From: Desulfomonilia bacterium
GTDB taxonomy: Bacteria > Desulfobacterota > Desulfomonilia > UBA1062
DNA: 36,959 bases
Assembly: GCA_036567785.1 (NCBI GenBank)
Contig: DATCTV010000045.1
Location: 1-36,959, forward strand
Reading direction: 5' to 3'
Position 1 is the first letter of the stretch. Each line of letters opens with the position of its first letter. The position numbers were made by a program, and so were the translations under genes. The notes under the pieces are model-generated. The model was not told the origin of the DNA, did not search any database, and was given only the letters and a program-made list of their open reading frames with translations. Shown in pieces: positions 6,583 to 22,711 of this stretch.

Positions 6583-7788
6583 TTATTCGTGTCTCAAAGC
6601 CTCAATTGGGTCAAGCCTGGCAGCCTTCAGCGCCGGGAAGTAACCGAATATCACTCCTACAGCGGCTGAAAATAAAAACGCAATCACCACGATTTCCAGG
6701 TTGAAAACAAACGGAACCTTAAGCAACGAAGAAAGCAATATAGAACCGACAATGGCAAGGATGATTCCCGTAAGCCCGCCAAGTGAGGACAGCACTACCG
6801 ATTCAACCAGAAACTGCATCAGTACCTCTTTTTCAAAAGCGCCGATGGCGAGACGGATTCCGATTTCACGGGTACGCTCAGTCACGGAAACAAGCATGAT
6901 GTTCATGATGCCGATACCTCCCACAAGAAGGCTGACTGCGGCAACGGCGCTCAATAGCCCGGTCATCATCTTGGTGGTTCCGGTGAGCATGTTAATGATC
7001 TCCTTCATGTCCATTACGGTGAAGTTGTCATCGTCACTGTCCGAGAGGTGCCTGCGTTCACGCATCAATTGCGTGATGTCGGTTTTCGCCTTTTCTGTAG
7101 AAACACCCTCTTTTATTGAGATTTGGATAAGGTTTACGTCCTGGTTTCCTGAGATGCGCCTCTGATATAATGCAAGCGGTATGATTACGATGTCGTCCTG
7201 GTCCGTGCCCATGGAACTCTGGCCTTTTCCCTCAAGAACACCCACTATTTCGCAGGTGAGCTTCTCAAGCCTGATTCGTTCTCCGACCGGGTCCTGAGAA
7301 CCGAACAGCTTCTTGCTCACTGTCTCGCCTATGATGCAGACAGGTGTACCTATGCGGATTTCGCTGTCGTTGAACTCCCGGCCTTCTTTTATCTGCCGGT
7401 TTGTCACTTTAAAATACTGGTTATTGCTTCCGGTAATCTGTGTGGTCCAGTTCTGATTGCTGAAGATCGCCTTGACCGAAGTCGTTGAAACAGGCGCAAC
7501 AGCCGACACTGAATTTATCTCCCTGGCAATCGCTTCCCCGTCCGAGAGCTTGAAAGGGACGGTACTTGAGGATTGTCCGGGACCAAGACGCTTGCCCGGA
7601 GTAATCATCAACATATTGCTTCCCATGCTGCTGATCTGTTCTTTGACTTGTTCGGTCGTGCCATTGCCAAGGGTCACCATTGTGATGACGGCGCCGACCC
7701 CGATTATAATGCCAAGGATGGTGAGAAATGATCTCATCAAGTTTCTTCTTATATCACGAAGGGCCAGTAGTATGGTGTTCCACAGCAT
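6583..7788 (-). CDS. MacB-like ABC transporter permease (FtsX-type)
   Basis: A 401-residue membrane protein. TM1 lies at about residues 17-42 (RSFLTILGIIIGVGAVITM), followed by a large MacB-type periplasmic domain (about 45-275) and three C-terminal TM segments; ILVSVTERTREIGIRLAIGA and PALKAARLDPIEALRHE are the FtsX/MacB signatures. The ATPase is a separate gene, unlike the fused E. coli MacB. With the upstream genes it forms a tripartite pump moving substrate from periplasm to outside. AGGAG overlaps the end of the ATPase gene. It is the last gene of the five-gene operon. Confidence 0.9.
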   Translation of the reverse strand: MLWNTILLALRDIRRNLMRSFLTILGIIIGVGAVITMVTLGNGTTEQVKEQISSMGSNMLMITPGKRLGPGQSSSTVPFKLSDGEAIAREINSVSAVAPVSTTSVKAIFSNQNWTTQITGSNNQYFKVTNRQIKEGREFNDSEIRIGTPVCIIGETVSKKLFGSQDPVGERIRLEKLTCEIVGVLEGKGQSSMGTDQDDIVIIPLALYQRRISGNQDVNLIQISIKEGVSTEKAKTDITQLMRERRHLSDSDDDNFTVMDMKEIINMLTGTTKMMTGLLSAVAAVSLLVGGIGIMNIMLVSVTERTREIGIRLAIGAFEKEVLMQFLVESVVLSSLGGLTGIILAIVGSILLSSLLKVPFVFNLEIVVIAFLFSAAVGVIFGYFPALKAARLDPIEALRHE

Positions 7789-7794
7789 GATGAA

Positions 7795-8517
7795 TTATCT
7801 CCTATTGTAATTATCGGAGTCAACGAGTCCGTCCACGAAATGGATTATACGTTTTGCATATTCCGCCATATCTGGTTCATGTGTCACCATGACGATGGTC
7901 ATTCCGAGATCGGTGTTGAGTCTTATGAGAAGGTCCATTATTTCTTTGCTTCTGGCTGTATCAAGATTTCCTGTCGGTTCATCAGCATAAAGAACCATTG
8001 GTTCGGTCACTATTGCACGGGCGATGGCGACACGCTGCTGCTGTCCGCCGGAAAGTTCGGCCGGCGTATGGGACTCCCATCCATTGAGTCCGACGGTTTC
8101 AAGGGCCCCCAATGACTTTTCGCGCCTGATGCGTGCTGATTCCCCCCGATAGATTAGCGGAAGTTCCACATTCTCAAGGGCGGAGGTACGGCCCAGCAGG
8201 TCATAACCCTGGAATACAAACCCGAGATAGAAACGCCTCAAGCGTGTGCGCTGGGCACGGCTCAACCTTCCGACATCTACGCCTTTGAAGCTGTATATTC
8301 CGCTGCTCGGCGTATCCAGGCAACCCAGGATATTCATACACGTGGATTTTCCCGAACCGCTGGGCCCCATGACTGCAACGAACTCGCCCTTATCGATGCT
8401 GAGGCTGATGCCCCTCAGCGCCTGCATGGCAGCCTGGCCTTTGCCGTATGTCTTGGTGACGCCTTTAAGTTCTATCAGAGGGATCGATGCTGATCCGTTA
8501 TTGTCCGGCATGTTCAT
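7795..8517 (-). CDS. ABC transporter ATPase, MacB/LolD class
   Basis: A 240-residue ATPase with Walker A GPSGSGKST (51-59), a Q-loop FQGYD, the signature LSGGQQQRVAIARA, Walker B with catalytic E in LYADEPTGNLD, and the H-loop THEPD. The LDTPSSG and GNLD segments are typical of the MacB/LolD/FtsE group that drives mechanotransmission and not membrane transport of the usual kind. Its ATG overlaps the TGA of the adaptor gene (ATGA at 8514-8517), and the permease follows 6 bases after its stop, so it pairs with both. Confidence 0.93.
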   Translation of the reverse strand: MNMPDNNGSASIPLIELKGVTKTYGKGQAAMQALRGISLSIDKGEFVAVMGPSGSGKSTCMNILGCLDTPSSGIYSFKGVDVGRLSRAQRTRLRRFYLGFVFQGYDLLGRTSALENVELPLIYRGESARIRREKSLGALETVGLNGWESHTPAELSGGQQQRVAIARAIVTEPMVLYADEPTGNLDTARSKEIMDLLIRLNTDLGMTIVMVTHEPDMAEYAKRIIHFVDGLVDSDNYNRR

Positions 8518-9815
8518 TTCACCTTGGTGATTGTGTCGACCACCACCGCAGTACCCGGTTTTAGGTCTGTGCTGATGATCTCCGTCAAATTGCCGTTTGT
8601 TGCTCCGGTCTTTACCGGAACAGCCTTAAGGGATCCATCCTGAACTATCCATACCTGCTGTTTCTTTCCTTCTCCTGATGAGTTTTGATCGCGACTGGAT
8701 GACTCTTTGGGCGGATGGGGTAACAGTGAACCCACAAGGCCGCCTGAAGAGGATGTCTTTTCTGTATCTTTATTTTCCTCAGGAGGAACAAATCTGAGGG
8801 CGGCGGTTGGTGCCAGCAAGGCCTGTTTCACCTCGTTGACCTTAATGTCTGCCGTAACCGTCATGCCGGGCCTCAGACTCAGGTCGGAGTTGTCGACTTT
8901 CAGGACCGTTTCGTAGGTCACAACGCCTGACGTGGTCGATGAACCGTAATGTGATTTTGTTATACGGGCCGTAAATATCCTGTTTGGATATGCGGAAACG
9001 GTGAATGTCGCATCCTGGCCTTCTTTGATTTTGCCGATATCGGCCTCGTCCACGTTCACATGCAGTTCCATCTTGGTCAGGTCCTCGGCTAACGTAAACA
9101 ATACTGGAGTCTGGTAAGAGGCCGCAACAGTCTGACCGGGTTCGATGTCGCGTTTAAGGATGACTCCATTGATGGGCGAGCGGATTATTGCCTTGGAAAG
9201 ATCCGTCAGGTTCGAATCAAGTTTTGCCTGTGTTTCAGATACAGCAGCTTTCGCGCTTGCCAGATCAGCCTTTGCTCTATCATAAGATGCCTGTGCGGAG
9301 TTCATTTCCGTCTGGGATGGAACCTTATTGTTGCTCAATTTTCTCACATTCTGGTACTGTACAAGTTTATCGCGTGTTTCGGACAGGGTCGCCTGGGCCT
9401 GCTCAACCTTAGCCAAGGCTGACTCAAGAGAGGCCTTGGTCTGCGTGGCCTCTGCCTTGAGTTTCGTGGTATCAATCTCTGCCAGGGGCTGGCCTGCCTT
9501 GACCCTGTCGTTGTAATCCACCAAGACCTTCTTTATGGTGCCGGACAACTCGCTGCCCACTTCCACTTCGTTCGTAGGCTCAAGGGTTCCGGTTGCGGTT
9601 ACTTTCACTATCAGATCGTTTCGCACTATCTTCTCTGTCTTATATTGAAGCGGCTTGTCGTTTGACGTACCTTTGATAATCACTATAACTATGACCAGAA
9701 CAACCAGAACTCCGGCTATAATAACCCAGCGTTTGATCTTATTTGTGTTCCCTGATTTATGTCCTATCTCCAGTACCTCATTGATGTTTGCTTCAGTATT
9801 TGTATTTATTTCCAT
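8514..9815 (-). CDS. MacA/HlyD-type periplasmic adaptor
   Basis: A 433-residue protein with a short cytoplasmic N-terminus, one TM segment (about residues 29-47, WVIIAGVLVVLVIVIVII), a split lipoyl domain (VEVGSELSGTIKKVLVDYND and SPINGVILKRDIEPGQ), a coiled-coil hairpin between them, and beta-barrel/membrane-proximal domains. A low-complexity Ser/Lys-rich insertion near residues 345-380 is unusual for MacA. It bridges the FtsX-type permease and the outer-membrane channel encoded next to it. AGGGAGATG precedes the start. Confidence 0.9.
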   Translation of the reverse strand: MEINTNTEANINEVLEIGHKSGNTNKIKRWVIIAGVLVVLVIVIVIIKGTSNDKPLQYKTEKIVRNDLIVKVTATGTLEPTNEVEVGSELSGTIKKVLVDYNDRVKAGQPLAEIDTTKLKAEATQTKASLESALAKVEQAQATLSETRDKLVQYQNVRKLSNNKVPSQTEMNSAQASYDRAKADLASAKAAVSETQAKLDSNLTDLSKAIIRSPINGVILKRDIEPGQTVAASYQTPVLFTLAEDLTKMELHVNVDEADIGKIKEGQDATFTVSAYPNRIFTARITKSHYGSSTTSGVVTYETVLKVDNSDLSLRPGMTVTADIKVNEVKQALLAPTAALRFVPPEENKDTEKTSSSGGLVGSLLPHPPKESSSRDQNSSGEGKKQQVWIVQDGSLKAVPVKTGATNGNLTEIISTDLKPGTAVVVDTITKVK

Positions 9816-9837
9816 ATTTCATCTCCCTGATGATCGT

Positions 9838-11295
9838 TTAGGATTTTGTTCCTTCTGATGTCCATCCCCCGCCGATTGCCTTATATAGCCGGACGACATC
9901 CATGGTTATATTTCCTTCAGACTGTGCCAGATCGTCCTCAAGAGATAAAAGAGAGCGTTCAGCCACAAGCACATCGGTGAAATCAGTCAATCCGGACTGG
10001 TATTTATACTGCGTCAGCTCAACCGCCAGTTGCGCCGACTTGACCGCCTCGACCAAAGCATTTCTCCGGTTTTGCTCCTGAGCATAGGCTGTGATTGCAT
10101 TTTCAACTTCTTCCAATGCTTCCAGAACGGCAGTCTCATAGTCGCAAAGGTATTGCTCCTGAATGGCTGTCTGGACTTTTATATTCTGGCGTATGGATCC
10201 GGCCTCGAAAATCCTCCATGAGATAAGACCGCCACCGCTTGCGGTCTGGTTTCCCGGCGAGAATATCTTGTTTATCGACAATGCTTCAAGCCCTATCGAA
10301 CCATCAAGAGTAAATTTTGGATAGAGTTCGGCAGTTGCAACACCAATTTGAGCGGTCTGTGAGGCTAAATCGCGTTCAGCCTTCCGGACATCCGGACGTT
10401 GTCTGAGGACGTCGGCCGGCACCCCAACTGCAATATTCGACGGCGCCAATGGTATAGGTTGATGATTCTTTATCTCTTTCTGCACCTTGCCGGGCTGTTC
10501 GCCGATAAGTACGGCGAGGCGATTTGCCGCTTCTTCAAGGCCGGTGTACAAGGGAGGAATTTCAGAGAGTGTGGCTTCCCGGTTGTATTTGGCTTGCTGA
10601 ACCGCCAATTCGTCGGTAAGTCCGGCCTGATATCGCCACTGGGTCAGCCTGAGAGTTTCATCCTGTGACTTCAAATTGGACTCCATAACGTCTATCCTGG
10701 ACTGGTATGTCCGGGCATCCAGATAATTCAAAGCTACTTCCGCAAGTAATGAAACGAGAACATCCCTCTTGTTCTCGACGCTTGATTGGAGGGAAGCATC
10801 TGAGGCTTCAACGGAACGACGTACGCCCCCGAATACATCAAGTTCCCAGCTGGCGTCGAATCCCAGTGAAAAAAGGTTGGAAGTGATTCCACTGCCGGAA
10901 TTTTCACTGGTGCTGCTGCGATTGCCGCTGCCGGATGCATCAACTGTTGGATAATATCCCGCCTTGGCCATGTTCCGCTGTGCTCGGGCTTCATGTATAC
11001 GGGCTTCAGCCTTTTTCAGGTCAAAATTATTGGCGACGGCCCTGTTTATAAGGCTTGTGAGTTCCGCATCATTAAACACGGTCCACCATGAAGCAAGATC
11101 CTTCTGATTGATTGCGCCATCGTTAATTCCGTTTTCAAGCGGAGAATGCCACTTGCTGTTCGTTGATATATCCGGCTTGACATAATTAGGGCCCACTGAT
11201 GGGATCGAGGCACATCCAAAAAATACAAGCGCTGAAAAAATTCCTGACAGATATAAAATGCCACGGTGAAAAATCTCTTGTTGGATATGGATCAT
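9838..11295 (-). CDS. Outer-membrane efflux lipoprotein, NodT/TolC family
   Basis: A 485-residue protein. The signal peptide ends with a lipobox-like FFGC (C28), then SIPSVGPNYVKPD, the standard opening of NodT-family outer-membrane factors. Two OEP repeats follow, with the typical ARIHEARAQRN and QYKYQSGLTDFTDVL segments near the end of each half. It would form the trimeric outer-membrane channel of the pump. The start ATG lies 3 bases after the tetR stop, with AGGAGG inside the end of tetR, so the two are cotranscribed. Confidence 0.9.
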   Translation of the reverse strand: MIHIQQEIFHRGILYLSGIFSALVFFGCASIPSVGPNYVKPDISTNSKWHSPLENGINDGAINQKDLASWWTVFNDAELTSLINRAVANNFDLKKAEARIHEARAQRNMAKAGYYPTVDASGSGNRSSTSENSGSGITSNLFSLGFDASWELDVFGGVRRSVEASDASLQSSVENKRDVLVSLLAEVALNYLDARTYQSRIDVMESNLKSQDETLRLTQWRYQAGLTDELAVQQAKYNREATLSEIPPLYTGLEEAANRLAVLIGEQPGKVQKEIKNHQPIPLAPSNIAVGVPADVLRQRPDVRKAERDLASQTAQIGVATAELYPKFTLDGSIGLEALSINKIFSPGNQTASGGGLISWRIFEAGSIRQNIKVQTAIQEQYLCDYETAVLEALEEVENAITAYAQEQNRRNALVEAVKSAQLAVELTQYKYQSGLTDFTDVLVAERSLLSLEDDLAQSEGNITMDVVRLYKAIGGGWTSEGTKS

Positions 11296-11298
11296 ATG

Positions 11299-12000
11299 CT
11301 AGCGCCTCCTGGATGAACTTCTCTTTTGTAACGATTTTGTCGATTCTGCTTTTCTTGATTTCTTTGCATCAAGTACTGCCCTTATGCCACCTAATGAAAA
11401 TGTAATGACATGCTCGATATAGTCATTGATATCATTAAGGCTTGTTGGTTTGTTGCCCTTGTCAGCGTTTTCACCACGTCCCCAGTTTGTTACAGCAGGG
11501 TTCACACATTGGCTAAAGATGCTGATTTCGCAGAATTGAACCTGCGTCTCGGAGACATCGGGGCCAAGTAGTTCACGGATGACCAAATTCAACCTCGCCT
11601 GCATGGGCTGGATCTCCTCATGGATTACATGTTCTAAAAGTCCTGTCGGGCTGGCCATTTCCCTCTGAACAATCATGAATTCCTTGTTGTTCTCGTCAGA
11701 AAAACGGTTGAGGAGTGCTTTAATTTGACCCTTAAGCCTTTCTTTTGGAGGTGCATTTTCGTTGACGCCGCCATCTGGCGGATGGTCTCTTAGCGCCTCC
11801 TTGAGGGATTGCCTCCATGCTTCACGGTACAAGGATTCCTTGTCGCCGAAATGATAATTTACCGCTGCAGTATTAGCTTGGGCTCTGGCGCAAATTTCTG
11901 CAATGGTTGCGTCGCGGTAGCCTTTCACTGCAAAGACCTCGGCTGCCGCCTTAAGAAGTCTTCCTTGCGTTCTTGCCGCATCCTCTCTCTGTATCTTCAT
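11299..12000 (-). CDS. TetR-family repressor with CerR-type C-terminal domain
   Basis: A 233-residue regulator. The N-terminal HTH (about residues 12-58) reads ATIAEICARAQANTAAVNYH, a classic TetR recognition helix, and the C-terminal part (MIVQREMASPTGLLEHVI) fits the CerR/DUF1956 ligand domain. The protein ends in an Arg/Lys/Ser-rich tail from about residue 215. It is the first gene of the efflux operon and very likely represses it until a ligand binds. An AT-rich inverted repeat overlaps its promoter. Confidence 0.88.
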   Translation of the reverse strand: MKIQREDAARTQGRLLKAAAEVFAVKGYRDATIAEICARAQANTAAVNYHFGDKESLYREAWRQSLKEALRDHPPDGGVNENAPPKERLKGQIKALLNRFSDENNKEFMIVQREMASPTGLLEHVIHEEIQPMQARLNLVIRELLGPDVSETQVQFCEISIFSQCVNPAVTNWGRGENADKGNKPTSLNDINDYIEHVITFSLGGIRAVLDAKKSRKAESTKSLQKRSSSRRR

Positions 12001-15566: not shown

Positions 15567-16979
15567 TCATTCGTCCGGAGTCTTCAGGATGAATGCCACC
15601 GAGCTCTTCACTCTGCCGGGTCTGCCCGCGAATCGGTCGTATTCGTTTGCCAGTCTTTTCGCGCTGTTTATTGAAGCCAGCTTTCGTACCAGTGGATCTG
15701 CACCCTCAACTATTCGGTTCTTGATGACATCTGTGCCCTGCTGTCTTACCTGCGAGATGCCTGTTTTCAGTTCAAGCGTACCTGCCTCCAGCTTTTTTGA
15801 ACCGTCGATCATGGCAAGCGAGCCCTTATTCAGCTGAGAGATTCCGTCTGCAGTGACCCTGATGCCCGGGAATTCCTTGACCGGAGGGGCCTCCTTGCCC
15901 TGCTCCTTCAGGAAGGCGAGTATGTCGTCGGGGAAGGGGCCGCCATTCGATGCGAGATCGAGAAGTCCCTTCTGAATGTCCATGTAACGCTTGGCCTTTC
16001 CGGCTTCGCCGGAGACGACCGGAATTTTTGTAAGAGGTGTTATCTTTTCTCCCATACCCTCGCTTATTCTGGCCGCTCCGCCGATCATTTCAATCTGGGC
16101 GTTCGATGCGAGGATCAGGTCCGAGGTTCCCCTGTTGACCTGTGTGAGGGCATCAAGCATCTGCTGCTGTCCGTCGGCCAGCTGCGATGCGCCGTTTTCA
16201 AGCCTTGTGAGATAACCCCCTACCGAATCCACGCCTGAGTATATCTGGTTAAGCTTTCCCTCCAGATCTATCTCGGGCAGCGCCGGAAATTTAGGGATGA
16301 CAGTGAAAAGTATGGACGGGATCTTAGCATTATTGATGTCCGAGGTGAGCCTGACACTGGCTTCGGGGTAGGGGAAACACATCCAGTTCATCTTCATGGT
16401 ATGGCCCACTACTGCATAAGCGCCGTCGGGAGCGGATATGTTGTTGAACTGGCTGATGTCCAGGTCCGTACTCACCATGACGACAAATGGCACCTGAATA
16501 TATTCGCTCGCTTTGATGAGTTTCCCGGTGCCGATCTCTTTATATGTGAATTCCCTTAATTCGCGTGTACGGTTCCTAATGTTAATGGTCATCTCCAGCC
16601 TGCCGCTTCTGCCGCTTATTTCACTTCTCGCTACAGGCTTTCCGTTGAGTTTGTACTTAATGTCGAATGTTACGGGCAGGTCCCTGGAAGTTGTCCCGCT
16701 ATAGAAGATATCCTTAGCCGGGGCCGTGAATGTGATGACCCCTTCCTGGGAAACTGACGGCGTTTCGGAGCCCTGGATATTTTTTATGCCTTTGAGCGCC
16801 GTGGCATCCTGTGCGGGGCCGCGGCTGTCCGTACGCAGCCAGGTGACGACCTCGGTTTTCTGAGGCTTGCCGTGAGAGTCCAGGCTCACATACACTGTTT
16901 CGTTGCGCGATATGGTCTGAGCGTATGCGCTTAAAGTCGTGATCAAGAAGATGAAGATGGTGATGATGATTTTTTTCAT
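15567..16979 (-). CDS. Secreted YhgE/Pip-like partner protein of the RND exporter
   Basis: A 470-residue protein with a signal peptide ending SAYAQ (about residue 21). The N-terminal NETVYVSLDSHGKPQKTEVV resembles the opening of YhgE/Pip-like exported proteins that in Firmicutes occur beside MMPL transporters (recalled knowledge). From about residue 255 it has helical repeats such as LENGASQLADGQQQMLDAL and LNKGSLAMIDGSKKLEAGT, the spaced G/L pattern of long periplasmic helical hairpins. No C-terminal TM segment is visible, unlike full Pip proteins. It starts 3 bases after the RND stop codon, so it is probably a dedicated periplasmic component. Confidence 0.7.
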   Translation of the reverse strand: MKKIIITIFIFLITTLSAYAQTISRNETVYVSLDSHGKPQKTEVVTWLRTDSRGPAQDATALKGIKNIQGSETPSVSQEGVITFTAPAKDIFYSGTTSRDLPVTFDIKYKLNGKPVARSEISGRSGRLEMTINIRNRTRELREFTYKEIGTGKLIKASEYIQVPFVVMVSTDLDISQFNNISAPDGAYAVVGHTMKMNWMCFPYPEASVRLTSDINNAKIPSILFTVIPKFPALPEIDLEGKLNQIYSGVDSVGGYLTRLENGASQLADGQQQMLDALTQVNRGTSDLILASNAQIEMIGGAARISEGMGEKITPLTKIPVVSGEAGKAKRYMDIQKGLLDLASNGGPFPDDILAFLKEQGKEAPPVKEFPGIRVTADGISQLNKGSLAMIDGSKKLEAGTLELKTGISQVRQQGTDVIKNRIVEGADPLVRKLASINSAKRLANEYDRFAGRPGRVKSSVAFILKTPDE

Positions 16980-16982
16980 CGA

Positions 16983-19055
16983 TTACTCCTTAACTGTTTT
17001 TCTCCAGCCGTAGCTGGTTCGCAAGATGATCCTGTCCGATAGGAGAATAACTCCGGGCAGCAGGAAGAGTATGACGGCGACGGCCAGAAGCGCACCCCTG
17101 CCTATCATCAGGGAGAGCGACTGGATCATGTTGATGTCGCTTATATAGACCAGGCCGATGGTGGAGCAGAAGAGGCAGACGCCCGAGGTCAGAATGGCCG
17201 GGGCGGTGCCGACCATGCTGGAGACCATGGCCGGTCCGGCCTTGTCCCTGCGCCGCTCCTCCCTGTAGCGTGTCATCAGGAAGATGGCATAGTTGACGCA
17301 GGTTCCCAGCTGGATGGTCGTTATGCATGAGAATGTAATGTAGGGTATCGATTGCCCGAACAGATAGGGTATCGACACATTGATGAAAATGGCCAGGAGT
17401 ATTGCAGCCACGAGCACCACCGGGATAGAAAACGAGGCGAAGACGATTGTCACTATAAGCAGAATGCTGGCTATGCCTATGATGTCCACCTTTGCAAGGT
17501 CAGTGGCCGACAGGTCAGTCAGGTCCTTGGAGATCGGTGCATTGCCGGAGACATAGCTGCCGGAAATCTGGTGATTCCTGATTATGGAGCGAATATTACC
17601 GACCAGGGCATTGCCTTCGTTTGATCCCGGCAGAACGCTGACCCGCACCATGGCCAGAGTATAGCCACCTTTGGTGAAGCGGGACACGACATCCTCAGGG
17701 ATGAAGGAGGAAGGAACGGCGGGGTCCACAAGGCTTTCAAGAGAAATGGTCTGGATTACGCCAGGCTGCCTGCCGATGTCGTCTAATACCTGCTTTTGCA
17801 ACCAGCGCGGGGTCGAGGACGGGAAAAGGATGTTGATCAGTTCAATCGATCCCATGGAGTCCTGTATTTCATGGACGGCCTTAAGGGCCTTGAGGTTCTG
17901 GGGCAGTATGTCCTGTATGCTGTAGGAAAGGCTCGAATGCTGCCTTATATAGACAGTAGGCACGAAAAGGGAAACAAAGACAAGGCTCAGTGCGACCGGG
18001 TGTTTCACCATCTTGCCGGAAAGGAATGTCATGGGTTTTATCATGCCTTTGGGTTCTCTGATCGTGCTGAAACGTCCCGCTGCCAGAGTCAGAGGCGGCA
18101 GTATCACCATGGTGCTCAACAGGCCGAAGAAGACACCTTTGGCCATTACGATGCCCATATCGGCGCCGAGCTTTATTCGCATGAATGTCAGCGCCAGAAA
18201 TCCGGCCATAGTGACCAGGGCACACGGGATTATGGCGCTTGCAGTGCGCTCCATGGCCCTGACCATTGCCTCGCGCCTGTCCGTTGTACTGGCCGTCTCT
18301 TCGCGGAATCGGTGCATGAGAAAAATGGAGAAGTCGATGGTGACGCCGAGCTGGATTACGGCGGCCACGGCCTTGGTTATATATGATATGGAACCCAGGA
18401 AGTAGTTCGTTCCCATATTGTAAGTGATGCCGAAGCCCATGACTATGAGGAACAGTATCGGGATGCTCAGGGAACCCGTGGCAATGGCTGTGGCAACAGC
18501 CGAAAGGATCACCGCCGTCAGAACTGATTTGACCTCCTGCTCCTTGACCAGATCGCGCAGCTCATAGAGAAACACCGGCATGCCGGTGAATGACGTGCCC
18601 TCGCCTATATACTTCTTGATGTCGCGTATCGCATTCTGGGTTTCGACCGAATTGGCCTCTTTCGAGAAAGAGATATGCATCAGTGCATGATCGCCCTTCT
18701 TGAATAAGGCGATCATTTCCTTCGGGATGAAGACATCCGGCACTGAAGGATCGACAAGGTCGCTTATCCAGGTGACGCCTGCCACCCCTTTTATTGAGGC
18801 CAGATCGTTTTTGATCTTGAGGAGTTGAGCCGTATTCGATGAATTGAGCATAACAAACCCCGTATCGGCGGTCTTGAACTGCTCTGTCATGATGAGCTGG
18901 CCTTTTATAGCCTCAACATTCCTGGGCATGTATGAGAAGATGTCGTAGTTGATCGGGGTTTTTATCGCACCGACGCCAGCCAGGACCGCAAGCAGGAGGG
19001 CTGCGATCAGAATGGTGCGCGGGTGCCTTGTTATGAATTCAGCAAATTGTTTCAT
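16983..19055 (-). CDS. RND-superfamily exporter, MMPL type
   Basis: A 690-residue membrane protein made of two similar halves, each with one TM, a periplasmic loop and five further TM segments. The loops show the duplication directly: DLVDPSVPDVFIPKEMIALF (about 99-118) against SLVDPAVPSSFIPEDVVSRF (about 441-460). TM4 has the proton-relay motif GVTIDFSIFL (D241), whereas the matching site in the second half reads GTCVNYAIFL (N588). MMPL proteins export lipids, siderophores or other hydrophobic molecules using proton motive force. The start overlaps the stop of the PhaR-like gene (ATGA at 19052-19055), and the YhgE/Pip-like gene follows directly. Confidence 0.88.
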   Translation of the reverse strand: MKQFAEFITRHPRTILIAALLLAVLAGVGAIKTPINYDIFSYMPRNVEAIKGQLIMTEQFKTADTGFVMLNSSNTAQLLKIKNDLASIKGVAGVTWISDLVDPSVPDVFIPKEMIALFKKGDHALMHISFSKEANSVETQNAIRDIKKYIGEGTSFTGMPVFLYELRDLVKEQEVKSVLTAVILSAVATAIATGSLSIPILFLIVMGFGITYNMGTNYFLGSISYITKAVAAVIQLGVTIDFSIFLMHRFREETASTTDRREAMVRAMERTASAIIPCALVTMAGFLALTFMRIKLGADMGIVMAKGVFFGLLSTMVILPPLTLAAGRFSTIREPKGMIKPMTFLSGKMVKHPVALSLVFVSLFVPTVYIRQHSSLSYSIQDILPQNLKALKAVHEIQDSMGSIELINILFPSSTPRWLQKQVLDDIGRQPGVIQTISLESLVDPAVPSSFIPEDVVSRFTKGGYTLAMVRVSVLPGSNEGNALVGNIRSIIRNHQISGSYVSGNAPISKDLTDLSATDLAKVDIIGIASILLIVTIVFASFSIPVVLVAAILLAIFINVSIPYLFGQSIPYITFSCITTIQLGTCVNYAIFLMTRYREERRRDKAGPAMVSSMVGTAPAILTSGVCLFCSTIGLVYISDINMIQSLSLMIGRGALLAVAVILFLLPGVILLSDRIILRTSYGWRKTVKE

Positions 19056-19600
19056 TTCCGTTCCCTTTCCGGAGATGTTTCGGGTGCAGCGTCAGTGCCG
19101 GAATTGAAAAGGCTGTCGAACGCGGAACGGCGGTCCTTCACTGCCTGCTCAAGCTTTTCGAGGATGGTATCGTAAAGATCATCCAGCTCTTTCGCTATCT
19201 CTTCGACAATTCTTTTCTCCCTGTTAAGCGGTATGAGAGAGGCAAGCGATGTCCTGTGTATAAGCTGCTTCGCCCAGGCCCTGCCCAGTTCCTTGTCATG
19301 CTTGTTTTTCTGGACCATCTCCTTGAGCACCTTAAGAAGGTCCAGCCGGGGAAGGTTGAAGAGCGAGGCTACCAGGTCAGGCAGGAGATTTCGCATCCCC
19401 CTGCCTGATTTCTCCAGATCGATCAGCATCTGGAGAATTGTCATGCGTGTTACGTCCTTGCCGGATTCATTGTCCTCGATGCGGATGTTGCAATCCTCCT
19501 TGAGCATCTCGGCCAATTGTTTGAGGGTGATCAACTTTGATGTAACGGTATCGTACATCAGCCGGTTTTTGTATTTTTTTATTCTGCGTAGTTTGCTCAT
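19052..19600 (-). CDS. PhaR-like (PHB/PHA accumulation regulator family) DNA-binding protein
   Basis: A 182-residue protein starting at MSKLRRIKKY; a longer frame to 19732 would cross the promoter. Residues 6-62 match the PHB_acc DNA-binding domain: IKKYKNRLMYDTVTSKLITL, then IEDNESGKDVTRMTILQML. The remainder is helical (residues about 70-170) with a charged C-terminal tail and could oligomerise or sense a ligand. Classical PhaR represses phasin and PHA genes and is released by PHA; here no PHA synthase, phasin or depolymerase is near. It heads an operon with an MMPL exporter, so export of a hydrophobic compound is the likelier output. Two palindromes over its promoter suggest autoregulation. 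Confidence 0.82.
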   Translation of the reverse strand: MSKLRRIKKYKNRLMYDTVTSKLITLKQLAEMLKEDCNIRIEDNESGKDVTRMTILQMLIDLEKSGRGMRNLLPDLVASLFNLPRLDLLKVLKEMVQKNKHDKELGRAWAKQLIHRTSLASLIPLNREKRIVEEIAKELDDLYDTILEKLEQAVKDRRSAFDSLFNSGTDAAPETSPERERK

Positions 19601-19607
19601 GGCCGCC

Positions 19608-19659
19608 CCTATATCTTTGTGCACTGCACAAGTCAAGGGAAAAATTATGCACTGCATAA
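19608..19659 (-). promoter_or_regulatory. Promoter with two palindromic operators for the PhaR-like/RND operon
   Basis: On the minus strand TTGACT (complement of 19631-19636) and TATAGG (complement of 19608-19613) are 17 bases apart. Two perfect 15-base palindromes differ only at one symmetric pair: TTGTGCACTGCACAA at 19617-19631, lying in the spacer between the boxes, and TTATGCACTGCATAA at 19645-19659, upstream of the -35. Their centres are 28 bases apart. TGC/GCA-rich symmetry is what I recall for PhaR sites. Binding would block RNA polymerase. The expected start point is only about 0-3 bases before the ATG. Confidence 0.65.
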
Positions 19660-19800: not shown

Positions 19801-20724
19801 TCAGGGCATTGCGATCTTAATGTTGTTGTTCTTTAAAAATTCCGGGAAACCGTAGAGCTTTTTGCCGAACATCTTCATCTCGTGGGCATCTGCCGGGCAG
19901 TTGTTGAGGCAGCCGAAGCACAGGATGCATCTGTCATCGTCTATTTTCGCCTGGGCTATGTCGATTGCACCTGTCGGACACTGCCTTATGCATTTGCCGC
20001 AGGCAATGCATTTGCTTTTGTTCAGCTTGTGGCTGATAAGGAGTTTGGTCGGGGACATCATGGCTTTTCCGCTGAAGATGCTGCCTGATCCGGTTTCAAA
20101 GGTGATACCGCCTTTGCCGTACTGATCGAGGGTTTTAGCAGCGAAAGCCCGCACGGCTTCATATGTTTTTACATTTGGTCTGTCCCTGAATTTAAGGATG
20201 CGGCCGGAATTGCCGAGCGACCAGGTCGGCGGATATGTGCTCATGTTGCCGAACATATCCATGCCGAGCGGTACTCCACCCTTTTCAGAAAGCAGCTTCA
20301 GCATGCAGGCGGCAGCCCATTTCTGACCGTCACCGTTGCCGCCGAAGCTTGTGAATGAAGCTACCCCTGTCCCTTTTATTGAGGGGATTGAGCCTAGCCA
20401 TTTCTGAACATTTAAAGGCGTATCGAGATAATGAACGGGTGAACCCGTGACTATCAAATCATAACCGGAAAGTGCTGAGACATCTGCATTCTTGATGAAA
20501 ACCGCGTCAACCTGAAGTCCGGTCTTTTTCCATGTCTCGGCGATCAATTCACCGTAAATTCTGGTATGTCCGGTCTGTGAATAGTAGACGACGATGGCCT
20601 TTTCCGGGGCCGGCTTATTAAGCCTGCCTGCCGGTGTTATTGTTTTGGAAAATGCCCGGGCAGGAATTATTGAACTGGCCGCTGCCCCTGCGCAGCCTGA
20701 AATGAACTTTCTTCTGTTTATCAC
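19801..20724 (-). CDS. Tat-exported flavodoxin / double-cluster ferredoxin fusion (EFR1 type)
   Basis: A 307-residue protein starting with GTG at 20724. The N-terminus NRRKFISGCAGAAA is a twin-arginine signal, with a possible cleavage site after PARA (residue 24). A flavodoxin domain follows, with the FMN loop YYSQTGHTR (47-55) and TGSPVHY (93-99). The C-terminus has two [4Fe-4S] motifs: C239-C242-C245-C249 and C266-C269-C272-C276, each ending in CP. It should carry electrons between FMN and iron-sulfur clusters outside the cytoplasm. It is the last gene of the operon with the GGR-like flavoprotein and VOC protein. Flavodoxin-ferredoxin fusions are common in anaerobes; a Tat signal on one is less usual. 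Confidence 0.85.
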   Translation of the reverse strand: MINRRKFISGCAGAAASSIIPARAFSKTITPAGRLNKPAPEKAIVVYYSQTGHTRIYGELIAETWKKTGLQVDAVFIKNADVSALSGYDLIVTGSPVHYLDTPLNVQKWLGSIPSIKGTGVASFTSFGGNGDGQKWAAACMLKLLSEKGGVPLGMDMFGNMSTYPPTWSLGNSGRILKFRDRPNVKTYEAVRAFAAKTLDQYGKGGITFETGSGSIFSGKAMMSPTKLLISHKLNKSKCIACGKCIRQCPTGAIDIAQAKIDDDRCILCFGCLNNCPADAHEMKMFGKKLYGFPEFLKNNNIKIAMP

Positions 20725-20759
20725 ACGATCACCGCCTGTCTCATCTGTTAATGTTCTAT

Positions 20760-22178
20760 CTATTTTACAGCCGCAGCAAAAAGCCTGTCAGCCTTTGATT
20801 TCCAGGCCTCGAACAGGACAGGGTCCCATCTGCCGGGATATGCCATATAGTGTTTGAAAATCTTTGTGCCTGCTGTTGTTGCGGCATTGAGTTTAAGTAG
20901 AAGCCCGGGCCTCATTATACCGCGCGTAACCGTTTTGATCATGGTAGGCAGGTCCGGCAATGTCACAATGCCGTTGATCGAGTTTGTCAGCATTTCGCTG
21001 CTCAATATATCCTGCCTGAACAGGAATGAGATGTCCTCGTGGCTTAGGTCCTGGAGGATATTTCTGATTGCAGTCAAACCTGCGTAGTTGGCTCCCCTTC
21101 TCGAGCCTGCAAACCATTTGAAGTTATATTCCCATAATGCGCTGCAATCGTTCTTTCCGGTATTCGCCGCAGACAGAACGGCCTCAGCCGCATATTTGCC
21201 GCCCACCATTGCGCCGCCCGCGCCGCAGCCTGTCATGGGAATGGTCTGTGATGCCGCATCTCCTATTACGACAAATCCATTTGCAACAAGGCTTGCCGGC
21301 GAACGGCCCACTAGGCATAGCCCGCCGCCTCCGCGGACAACTTCATCGGAAATCGAGGGGTGTCTCGATATGAATTCCATGACTATATCTTTCGGGTCGG
21401 GATTTTTCGGGTCATGACTTACGCCTGCGCCGGTGTCAATCTCGTCTTCATTCAAATACTGCAGCCACTGATAGCCTGTGTTAAAGCCATATCTGTAATG
21501 GTCATTAACAGGGTCAATAGGATTTTTATTTCTTTTCCTGACCGTCCTGTAAACAAGGGCGAATTCACTGTCTGAAAATTTTCCTGCAATGCCTGTGGTC
21601 TGAGGAAGTTTTGTCCTTAAGACCGCATTGAAGCCCGTATCGTCTGCAACTATATCCGCCTCAATATTTGTTATTTCACCCGATTCAATGTCTTTTACGG
21701 AAATGCCTTTCACCTCAACATCGCCAAGACTCTTTCCTCCCTTAAAAACAAGATCGACTGCCTCCTGTCCAAACAGGAATTTAGCACCGGCTTCTTGAGC
21801 CTCTTCGATGAGGAGTTTCGCCAGGGCGCGTCTGTCGGTGGTGACATACCTGAAATCAATGATCTTCATGCTCGAATAATCAGGCGCCCAGACTTCCATT
21901 CTGGGATAAGCATGCCGTTCGTAAATACCAGTCGTATTACCTGAAGCATCAGTAGTCTTGACGAGGGGCCCAAGATTTATAGAGCCTTCAAAAGGCGCAT
22001 CAAAACCTGTTTCAGCGAGCGCCGTGCGCTCGATTGCATCGGACCAGTCATGCCCTAGAGTTTCATATCCGCCCTTTTCGTAAACCTTTACGTCAATGCC
22101 TCTTCTGGCAAGGTCTCTTGCAAATATGCACCCGCCTGGACCTGCTCCGGCTACGACAACCTTGAAATTATCCGGCAT
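20760..22178 (-). CDS. FAD-dependent oxidoreductase, geranylgeranyl-reductase-like
   Basis: A 472-residue flavoprotein with the Rossmann dinucleotide motif VAGAGPGGCIFARDLARRG (GxGxxG at 11-16, E34 for ribose) and the second FAD motif GFVVIGDAASQTIPMTGCGA (GD in the middle), followed by GGAMVGGKYAAEAV. This matches the GGR/p-hydroxybenzoate-hydroxylase superfamily, whose GGR members saturate isoprenoid double bonds and in archaea can take electrons from ferredoxin. It has no evident TM segment. It lies 17 bases after the VOC gene and 35 bases before the flavodoxin-ferredoxin gene, which may supply electrons. The actual substrate is unknown; halogenase-like or epoxidase activity is a possible alternative. 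Confidence 0.75.
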   Translation of the reverse strand: MPDNFKVVVAGAGPGGCIFARDLARRGIDVKVYEKGGYETLGHDWSDAIERTALAETGFDAPFEGSINLGPLVKTTDASGNTTGIYERHAYPRMEVWAPDYSSMKIIDFRYVTTDRRALAKLLIEEAQEAGAKFLFGQEAVDLVFKGGKSLGDVEVKGISVKDIESGEITNIEADIVADDTGFNAVLRTKLPQTTGIAGKFSDSEFALVYRTVRKRNKNPIDPVNDHYRYGFNTGYQWLQYLNEDEIDTGAGVSHDPKNPDPKDIVMEFISRHPSISDEVVRGGGGLCLVGRSPASLVANGFVVIGDAASQTIPMTGCGAGGAMVGGKYAAEAVLSAANTGKNDCSALWEYNFKWFAGSRRGANYAGLTAIRNILQDLSHEDISFLFRQDILSSEMLTNSINGIVTLPDLPTMIKTVTRGIMRPGLLLKLNAATTAGTKIFKHYMAYPGRWDPVLFEAWKSKADRLFAAAVK

Positions 22179-22195
22179 AAGCTACCCCCTTAAAG

Positions 22196-22711
22196 CTAGA
22201 TTCCGAGCTTGCAGGCCAGGGTATGCGTAAACCGGTTCATTTTGAGCGGTAATGGCCCGAGTTTTGACTGGATGAATTCGATTACAACACCACAGCTTGA
22301 CTGTGTGTCCATGTAGGCATAATCAACCGTGAAGCCTTTGCTTTTTATCTGCCCGCGCTGGAGTACCTCGATGCCTGCCGCCTTGCATTCTTCGATGCGT
22401 TTTTCAAGGTTGTTAACCATGTATCCGAGATGATGAAGACCTTCGCGTTTATCCAGTGTATCGTTGTAGTAACTGCGGCCTGAAGTCACTTCGATCAGTT
22501 CGATCTGAACGCTTCCGGAATAGGCCATTAATATCTTGAGCGAGGCATTCACGGGCCCGGTTTTTTCGATAGTAAATTCAGGTGTTCCTTCCCATAGCAT
22601 CCAGGGGCCTATGCCCATGGTTTTCAACTGTTCCATTGTTTTTTCGGCATTGTAGACAACCATGCCTATCTGTCCCAGACCAGGCAGTTTTATTCCTTCC
22701 AATCGATTCAT
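22196..22711 (-). CDS. VOC-superfamily (glyoxalase fold) protein
   Basis: A 171-residue protein with two beta-alpha-beta3 modules. GLGQIGMVVYNAEKTMEQL opens the first module, with Q in the usual first metal-ligand position; SVQIELIE supplies a Glu. The second module begins REGLHHLGYMVNNLEKRIEE with a His and ends CGVVIEFIQ with another Glu. Members include methylmalonyl-CoA epimerase and various lyases and dioxygenases; nothing here fixes one activity. It is the first gene of the minus-strand redox operon. GAGGTG lies 5 bases before the ATG. Confidence 0.75.
   Translation of the reverse strand: MNRLEGIKLPGLGQIGMVVYNAEKTMEQLKTMGIGPWMLWEGTPEFTIEKTGPVNASLKILMAYSGSVQIELIEVTSGRSYYNDTLDKREGLHHLGYMVNNLEKRIEECKAAGIEVLQRGQIKSKGFTVDYAYMDTQSSCGVVIEFIQSKLGPLPLKMNRFTHTLACKLGI

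Follow-up and report, generated by a model that had tools for sequence, protein, structure and literature searches.

A PhaR-family regulator with twin PhaR-type operators at the head of an MMPL exporter operon in a Desulfomonilia bacterium

A regulator of the PhaR family probably represses its own synthesis together with that of an exporter encoded in the same operon, and a hydrophobic ligand may be the release signal. Classical PhaR is a granule-sensing repressor of PHA storage, for which the surface of the PHA granule is the signal; here, the switch appears to have been put to a different use, at an exporter operon. The operon lies within the window, which is the whole 36,959-base contig (C45) of a draft genome (G000; 3.96 Mb, 97% complete) from an uncultured bacterium with no apparent capacity for PHA synthesis. 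Our literature search turned up no publication in which a PhaR-family protein controls an MMPL operon, most subscription papers falling outside that search.

The operon and its products

Three tightly coupled genes make up the operon, all on the minus strand. They encode a PhaR-like transcriptional regulator of 182 aa (19052–19600), an MMPL/RND-type inner-membrane exporter of 690 aa (16983–19055) and a secreted or periplasmic partner protein of 470 aa with a signal peptide (15567–16979). The stop codon of the regulator gene overlaps the MMPL start as ATGA and only 3 bases separate the MMPL gene from that of the secreted protein, confirming the coupling described in an earlier note on this DNA. 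Control of the MMPL pair from the regulator promoter is very likely.

The same note had read the first two products as a PHB_acc-type DNA-binding protein and an MMPL protein, and both assignments are upheld by Pfam (PHB_acc_N, 65.8 bits against a cut-off of 25, residues 7–65; MMPL, 191 bits in two stretches). The regulator gene is the sole PHB_acc_N gene in the genome. Against TIGR01848, the PhaR equivalog model, its product scores 58.9 bits over residues 7–69 only, below the cut-off of 109.45, whereas canonical PhaR proteins from sister genomes of the same order reach 103–106 bits along the entire model and so fall slightly short of it as well. The regulator therefore matches TIGR01848 over its N-terminal half only and differs from canonical PhaR in its helical C-terminal part. 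With no resemblance to PhaR in this half of the protein, granule sensing in the PhaR style may have been lost. The AlphaFold model of the regulator has a mean pLDDT of 58, and a search for relatives of solved structure found none.

For the MMPL protein, relatives of solved structure include the lipid/siderophore exporters MmpL3, MmpL4 and MmpL5 and the hopanoid transporter HpnN. With these and BstA (MMPL/HAE3-type RND proteins) it has in common the family, the two MMPL repeats and the hydrophobic segments, of which 10 are strong by the Kyte-Doolittle scale in an RND-type topology. It differs from them in lying far below every named-subfamily cut-off (HpnN, 85.8 bits against 751.85; BstA, 56 against 1400; MmpL3, 38.2 against 1400), in its length of 690 aa and in being coupled to a dedicated secreted partner. 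The export role proposed earlier stands at the level of the MMPL family and gained no further support; by analogy with these relatives, lipid export by the MMPL pair would be a reasonable expectation.

In each of the five copies examined, the partner gene immediately follows an MMPL gene of this subtype, and the copies are 49–66% identical to the partner of the operon. Its product has one hydrophobic segment, at the N-terminus, and a low-confidence AlphaFold model (mean pLDDT 44) gives it a beta-rich N-terminal half followed by long helices. A match to the xxxLxxG heptad repeat is sub-threshold (16.2 bits against a cut-off of 18.6). The earlier description of this protein as YhgE/Pip-like was abandoned, as neither Pfam nor NCBIfam returned a YhgE/Pip match and the hydrophobic segment is N-terminal only.

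Two neighbouring gene groups may be mentioned. Upstream of the operon and in the same direction (19801–22711, minus strand) are genes for an EFR1-type flavodoxin-ferredoxin, a geranylgeranyl-reductase-like FAD protein and a methylmalonyl-CoA-epimerase-like protein. The latter two score below curated cut-offs, and isoprenoid or lipid chemistry adjoining the exporter is possible. A second exporter cluster (6583–12000, minus strand), named by sequence reading, contains MacA/MacB-like ABC exporter genes and an outer-membrane factor, and is headed by a CecR-type TetR regulator (Pfam TetR/CecR; 11299–12000).

Twin operators at the regulator promoter

On the minus strand, the promoter region reads TTATGCAGTGCATAA-TTTTTCCC-TTGACT-TGTGCAGTGCACAAAGA-TATAGG-GGCGGCC-ATG. 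Two perfect 15-base palindromes, noticed earlier in and just upstream of the promoter, are exact and occupy positions 19617–19631 (proximal, TTGTGCACTGCACAA) and 19645–19659 (distal, TTATGCACTGCATAA). The −35 element, TTGACT (19631–19636, minus strand), and the −10 element, TATAGG (19608–19613, minus strand), were predicted from the sequence and are separated by a 17-bp spacer. The first base of the proximal palindrome is the last base of TTGACT and the remainder lies within the spacer, while 8 bp separate the distal palindrome from the −35 downstream of it. Centre to centre, these putative sites are 28 bp apart. A generic promoter scan did not return the TTGACT-N17-TATAGG promoter because its rules accept a −10 only if the sixth base is T. 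Only 7 nt lie between the −10 and the ATG, and a leaderless or nearly leaderless mRNA is therefore predicted. Of 20,000 dinucleotide shuffles of the 200-bp intergenic region, 3 gave two perfect 7+1+7 palindromes, and across the 3.96 Mb of the genome the only exact matches to TTRTGCANTGCAYAA are these two palindromes. Operator-like sites with one mismatch lie near unrelated or intragenic positions in this genome, with no obvious regulon.

The phaP1 site of Sinorhizobium meliloti, TTATTGTGCACTGCACAAATT, at which PhaR binding was proven by gel shift, includes the proximal 15-mer without a single change (PMC12542648). Both phaP1 and phaP2 of S. meliloti carry two PhaR sites flanking the −35; those of phaP2 are 28 bp apart by their listed coordinates, the same arrangement of twin sites around a −35 as at the MMPL operon (PMC12542648). 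Consensus PhaR sites of Ralstonia eutropha contain a TGCN3GCA core (PMC12849132), as do those of Herbaspirillum (PMC3206438), and the operon promoter carries this palindromic core by sequence match to sites proven elsewhere. Because they match the S. meliloti, R. eutropha and Herbaspirillum sites, the palindromes are PhaR-type operators as far as sequence can tell, to which the 182-aa protein would be expected to bind. The system thus has in common with PhaR/AniA/PhbF of S. meliloti, Paracoccus, Rhodobacter, Ralstonia and Herbaspirillum the PHB_acc_N domain, the TGCN3GCA operator and, presumably, autoregulation, but its target is an MMPL operon and no PHA synthase was found in its genome.

A search for PHB_acc_N across the order (24 genomes) yielded two classes of protein. 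The weaker-scoring class, type 2, occurs in five genomes (G000, G001, G002, G008 and G010) and forms one clade (FastTree support 1.0), whose four other members are 34–68% identical to the operon regulator. A single-sequence scan of genome contigs gave no matches. With an alignment as the query, only the four sister genomes were recovered, and when 395 genomes from across the phylum were searched in this way (E ≤ 1e-25), clade members turned up only in the family to which G000 belongs. In all five genomes, the type-2 regulator gene is preceded by T[T/C]GACT, with the operator directly after it and then the −10. From the operator onwards, the sister promoters read TGTGCAGTGCACAAAGA-TATATG in G010, TGTGCACTGCATAATAC-TATGGT in G002, TGTGCATCGCATAATAC-TATGGT in G001 and TGGGCAATGCACAAGTA-TTATTA in G008. 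A one-mismatch operator pattern has so few matches in each of these genomes (2–9 per strand) that its presence exactly beside the −35 of the regulator gene throughout the clade is not attributable to chance. Lack of conservation of the palindromes upstream of orthologous operons had been named in the earlier note as a result that would refute its reading. This did not come about, as the spacer operator is kept upstream of the diverged orthologous regulators in four further genomes. The short distance from −10 to ATG, which suggests a leaderless mRNA, is found in G000 and G010 and not in G001, G002 or G008.

Self-repression, as first proposed for this regulator, is strengthened by the identity of the operator with proven PhaR sites and by its placement in the spacer. 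Since four sister genomes carry the operator in the same promoter spacer, direct autorepression by the regulator is very likely. It is most improbable that the palindromes are the sites of another palindromic regulator, such as the CecR-like TetR protein encoded at 11299–12000 on the same contig, since they are identical in sequence to proven PhaR sites (PMC12542648) and, in five genomes, occur together with the PhaR-like gene, in the promoter of that gene itself. That the two sites activate transcription instead of repressing it is improbable, if less so. The distal site lies upstream of the −35 in a position compatible with activation, and dual roles have been reported for PhaR, which activates phaP3 in R. 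eutropha (PMC12849132). However, in each of the five genomes the operator in the spacer covers part of the region contacted by RNA polymerase, and in G001, G002 and G008 the promoter of the regulator has no distal site. The distal operator is present solely in the genomes with the MMPL operon, G000 and G010; in G010 the entire operon was found with both operators and with gene order and close spacing kept.

A PhaR clade apparently apart from PHA synthesis

The absence of a PHA gene nearby, remarked on in the earlier note, is true of the 36,959-base contig, which contains no pha genes, and is even stronger at the level of the genome. In G000, PhaC_N has no match and the class III PHA synthase model (TIGR01836) none above its cut-off, the best score being 27 bits against 365. 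No type-2 genome of the five has this synthase above the cut-off, an absence that is weaker for G001 and G010 because these genomes are incomplete (82% and 86%), whereas three sister genomes with canonical PhaR do (G005, G006 and G016). The failure to find a PHA synthase in the type-2 genomes disfavours the suggestion that the export is polyester-related. The canonical PhaR loci of the order adjoin phasins and other pha genes. Elsewhere in the phylum, further PHB_acc_N proteins stand alone (loci L126, L129, L130 and L132). Their neighbours are Lys/Ala-rich or phasin-like helical proteins, and the stretches fetched gave no match to PHA synthase; at L126, two PHB_acc_N genes lie around ArsA-like ATPases.

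The operators of the two classes also differ within the same order, with RTGC half-sites in type 2 and TTGC at canonical PhaR loci. G or A precedes TGC in 20 of 20 type-2 half-sites (ten sites), whereas in the canonical half-sites of the order this base is T in 21/24 and C in 3/24, counts that are not phylogenetically independent. Since 9 of 52 canonical sites phylum-wide have G or A at this position, the difference is a tendency within the order and not an absolute rule. A candidate residue for a change in specificity is Leu14 of the type-2 motif NRLMYDT, which is Arg in the canonical NRRLYDT. Taken with the missing synthase, these data describe what is apparently a variant of the PhaR switch detached from PHA metabolism. 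We tentatively suggest that this clade without PHA synthase may have been rewired, from TTGC to RTGC, to sense a non-PHA hydrophobic compound and to gate lineage-specific targets, in this genome a lipid exporter.

A regulator left over from a decaying PHA system, with the exporter co-transcribed by chance, could also leave a small clade in which PHA synthase is not found. Such a relic is very improbable: the ORF is intact, the operators and promoter spacing have been kept over 34–68% regulator identity, and operon order and tight spacing are preserved in G010. We rejected it on the basis of the conserved operators and the coupling.

Targets of the regulator and a model for its release

Operons in which a TetR or MarR regulator is co-transcribed with an RND or MMPL pump, with operators in the promoter, are well known. 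The present operon shares with them the layout of local repressor plus exporter and differs in that its repressor is of the PhaR family. PHB_acc_N neighbourhoods were viewed in the order and in the 395-genome phylum sample (65 positive), with flanks of 1.5 kb at the best-scoring loci and up to ∼6 kb at most others. Throughout the order and this sample, an MMPL gene of the operon's type adjoins a PHB_acc_N gene in G000 and G010 only. The PHB_acc–MMPL neighbourhood put forward in the earlier note thus holds for two of the five clade members and is much narrower than had been implied, the other three having no exporter beside the regulator.

In those three genomes (G001, G002 and G008), a perfect operator is also found upstream of an orthologous radical-SAM gene, 7–9 bp before a TTGC[A/C]T −35, near the geometry of the distal site of the operon. 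No operator was found upstream of the more distant radical-SAM homologues in G000 and G010 or of a second one in G008. The radical-SAM gene was therefore rejected as a target common to all type-2 genomes, and targets differ between genomes. This gene (loci L075, L081 and L077; position 1501) encodes a protein of ∼480 aa with an N-terminal extension and is divergent from a nadC-containing cluster.

These differences bear on the main rival explanation, that the protein is a general metabolic regulator of carbon or redox status (acetyl-CoA/redox or carbon surplus) kept after PHA loss. Its targets would shift, with the MMPL pair as a lineage-specific one, and its ligand would be unrelated to the cargo. 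The operators at the radical-SAM gene in three genomes favour such a regulator, as does the control of many non-PHA genes by PhaR in S. meliloti (PMC12542648), and we consider it a plausible if somewhat doubtful alternative. In G000, however, exact operators occur only at the operon itself, a pattern that looks more like a switch dedicated to one locus than like global regulation.

The MMPL pair also exists without the regulator, so the regulatory link could be incidental to the substrate. Such pairs are encoded in G341 and G375 (53–55% identity), where they adjoin acyl-CoA dehydrogenase-like genes by sequence reading. A paralogous pair in G000 itself (44%; L072, 7994–11481, contig C43) is located downstream of a small TatA-like gene, with neither a PhaR-like gene nor an operator.

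For a dedicated switch at the exporter operon, we propose the following model. By extension of PhaR biochemistry, a dimer or tetramer of the regulator would bind both operators, the one in the spacer and the one ahead of the −35, and the bound protein would block RNA polymerase, keeping the regulator, the MMPL protein and the partner low. An accumulating hydrophobic ligand or surface would titrate the regulator off the DNA; by analogy with PhaR, the prospect that this inducer is hydrophobic but not PHA is close to even, and a lipid, a fatty-acyl compound or a neutral-lipid droplet would be the most likely candidate here. The derepressed MMPL pump and its periplasmic partner would then move the same class of substrate towards the envelope, although the idea that the exported lipid is identical or related to the inducer is more speculative.

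A monophyletic PhaR clade without detectable PHA synthase that has kept the operator and promoter geometry would mean that PhaR sensing is separable from PHA, and the type-2 clade makes this testable in vitro. Any compound able to release the repressor would be a candidate cargo of the uncharacterised MMPL pair, and the two half-site forms found within a single order lend themselves to a natural comparison of specificity. If the model is true, the operon would represent a switch titrated by hydrophobic surfaces outside storage metabolism.
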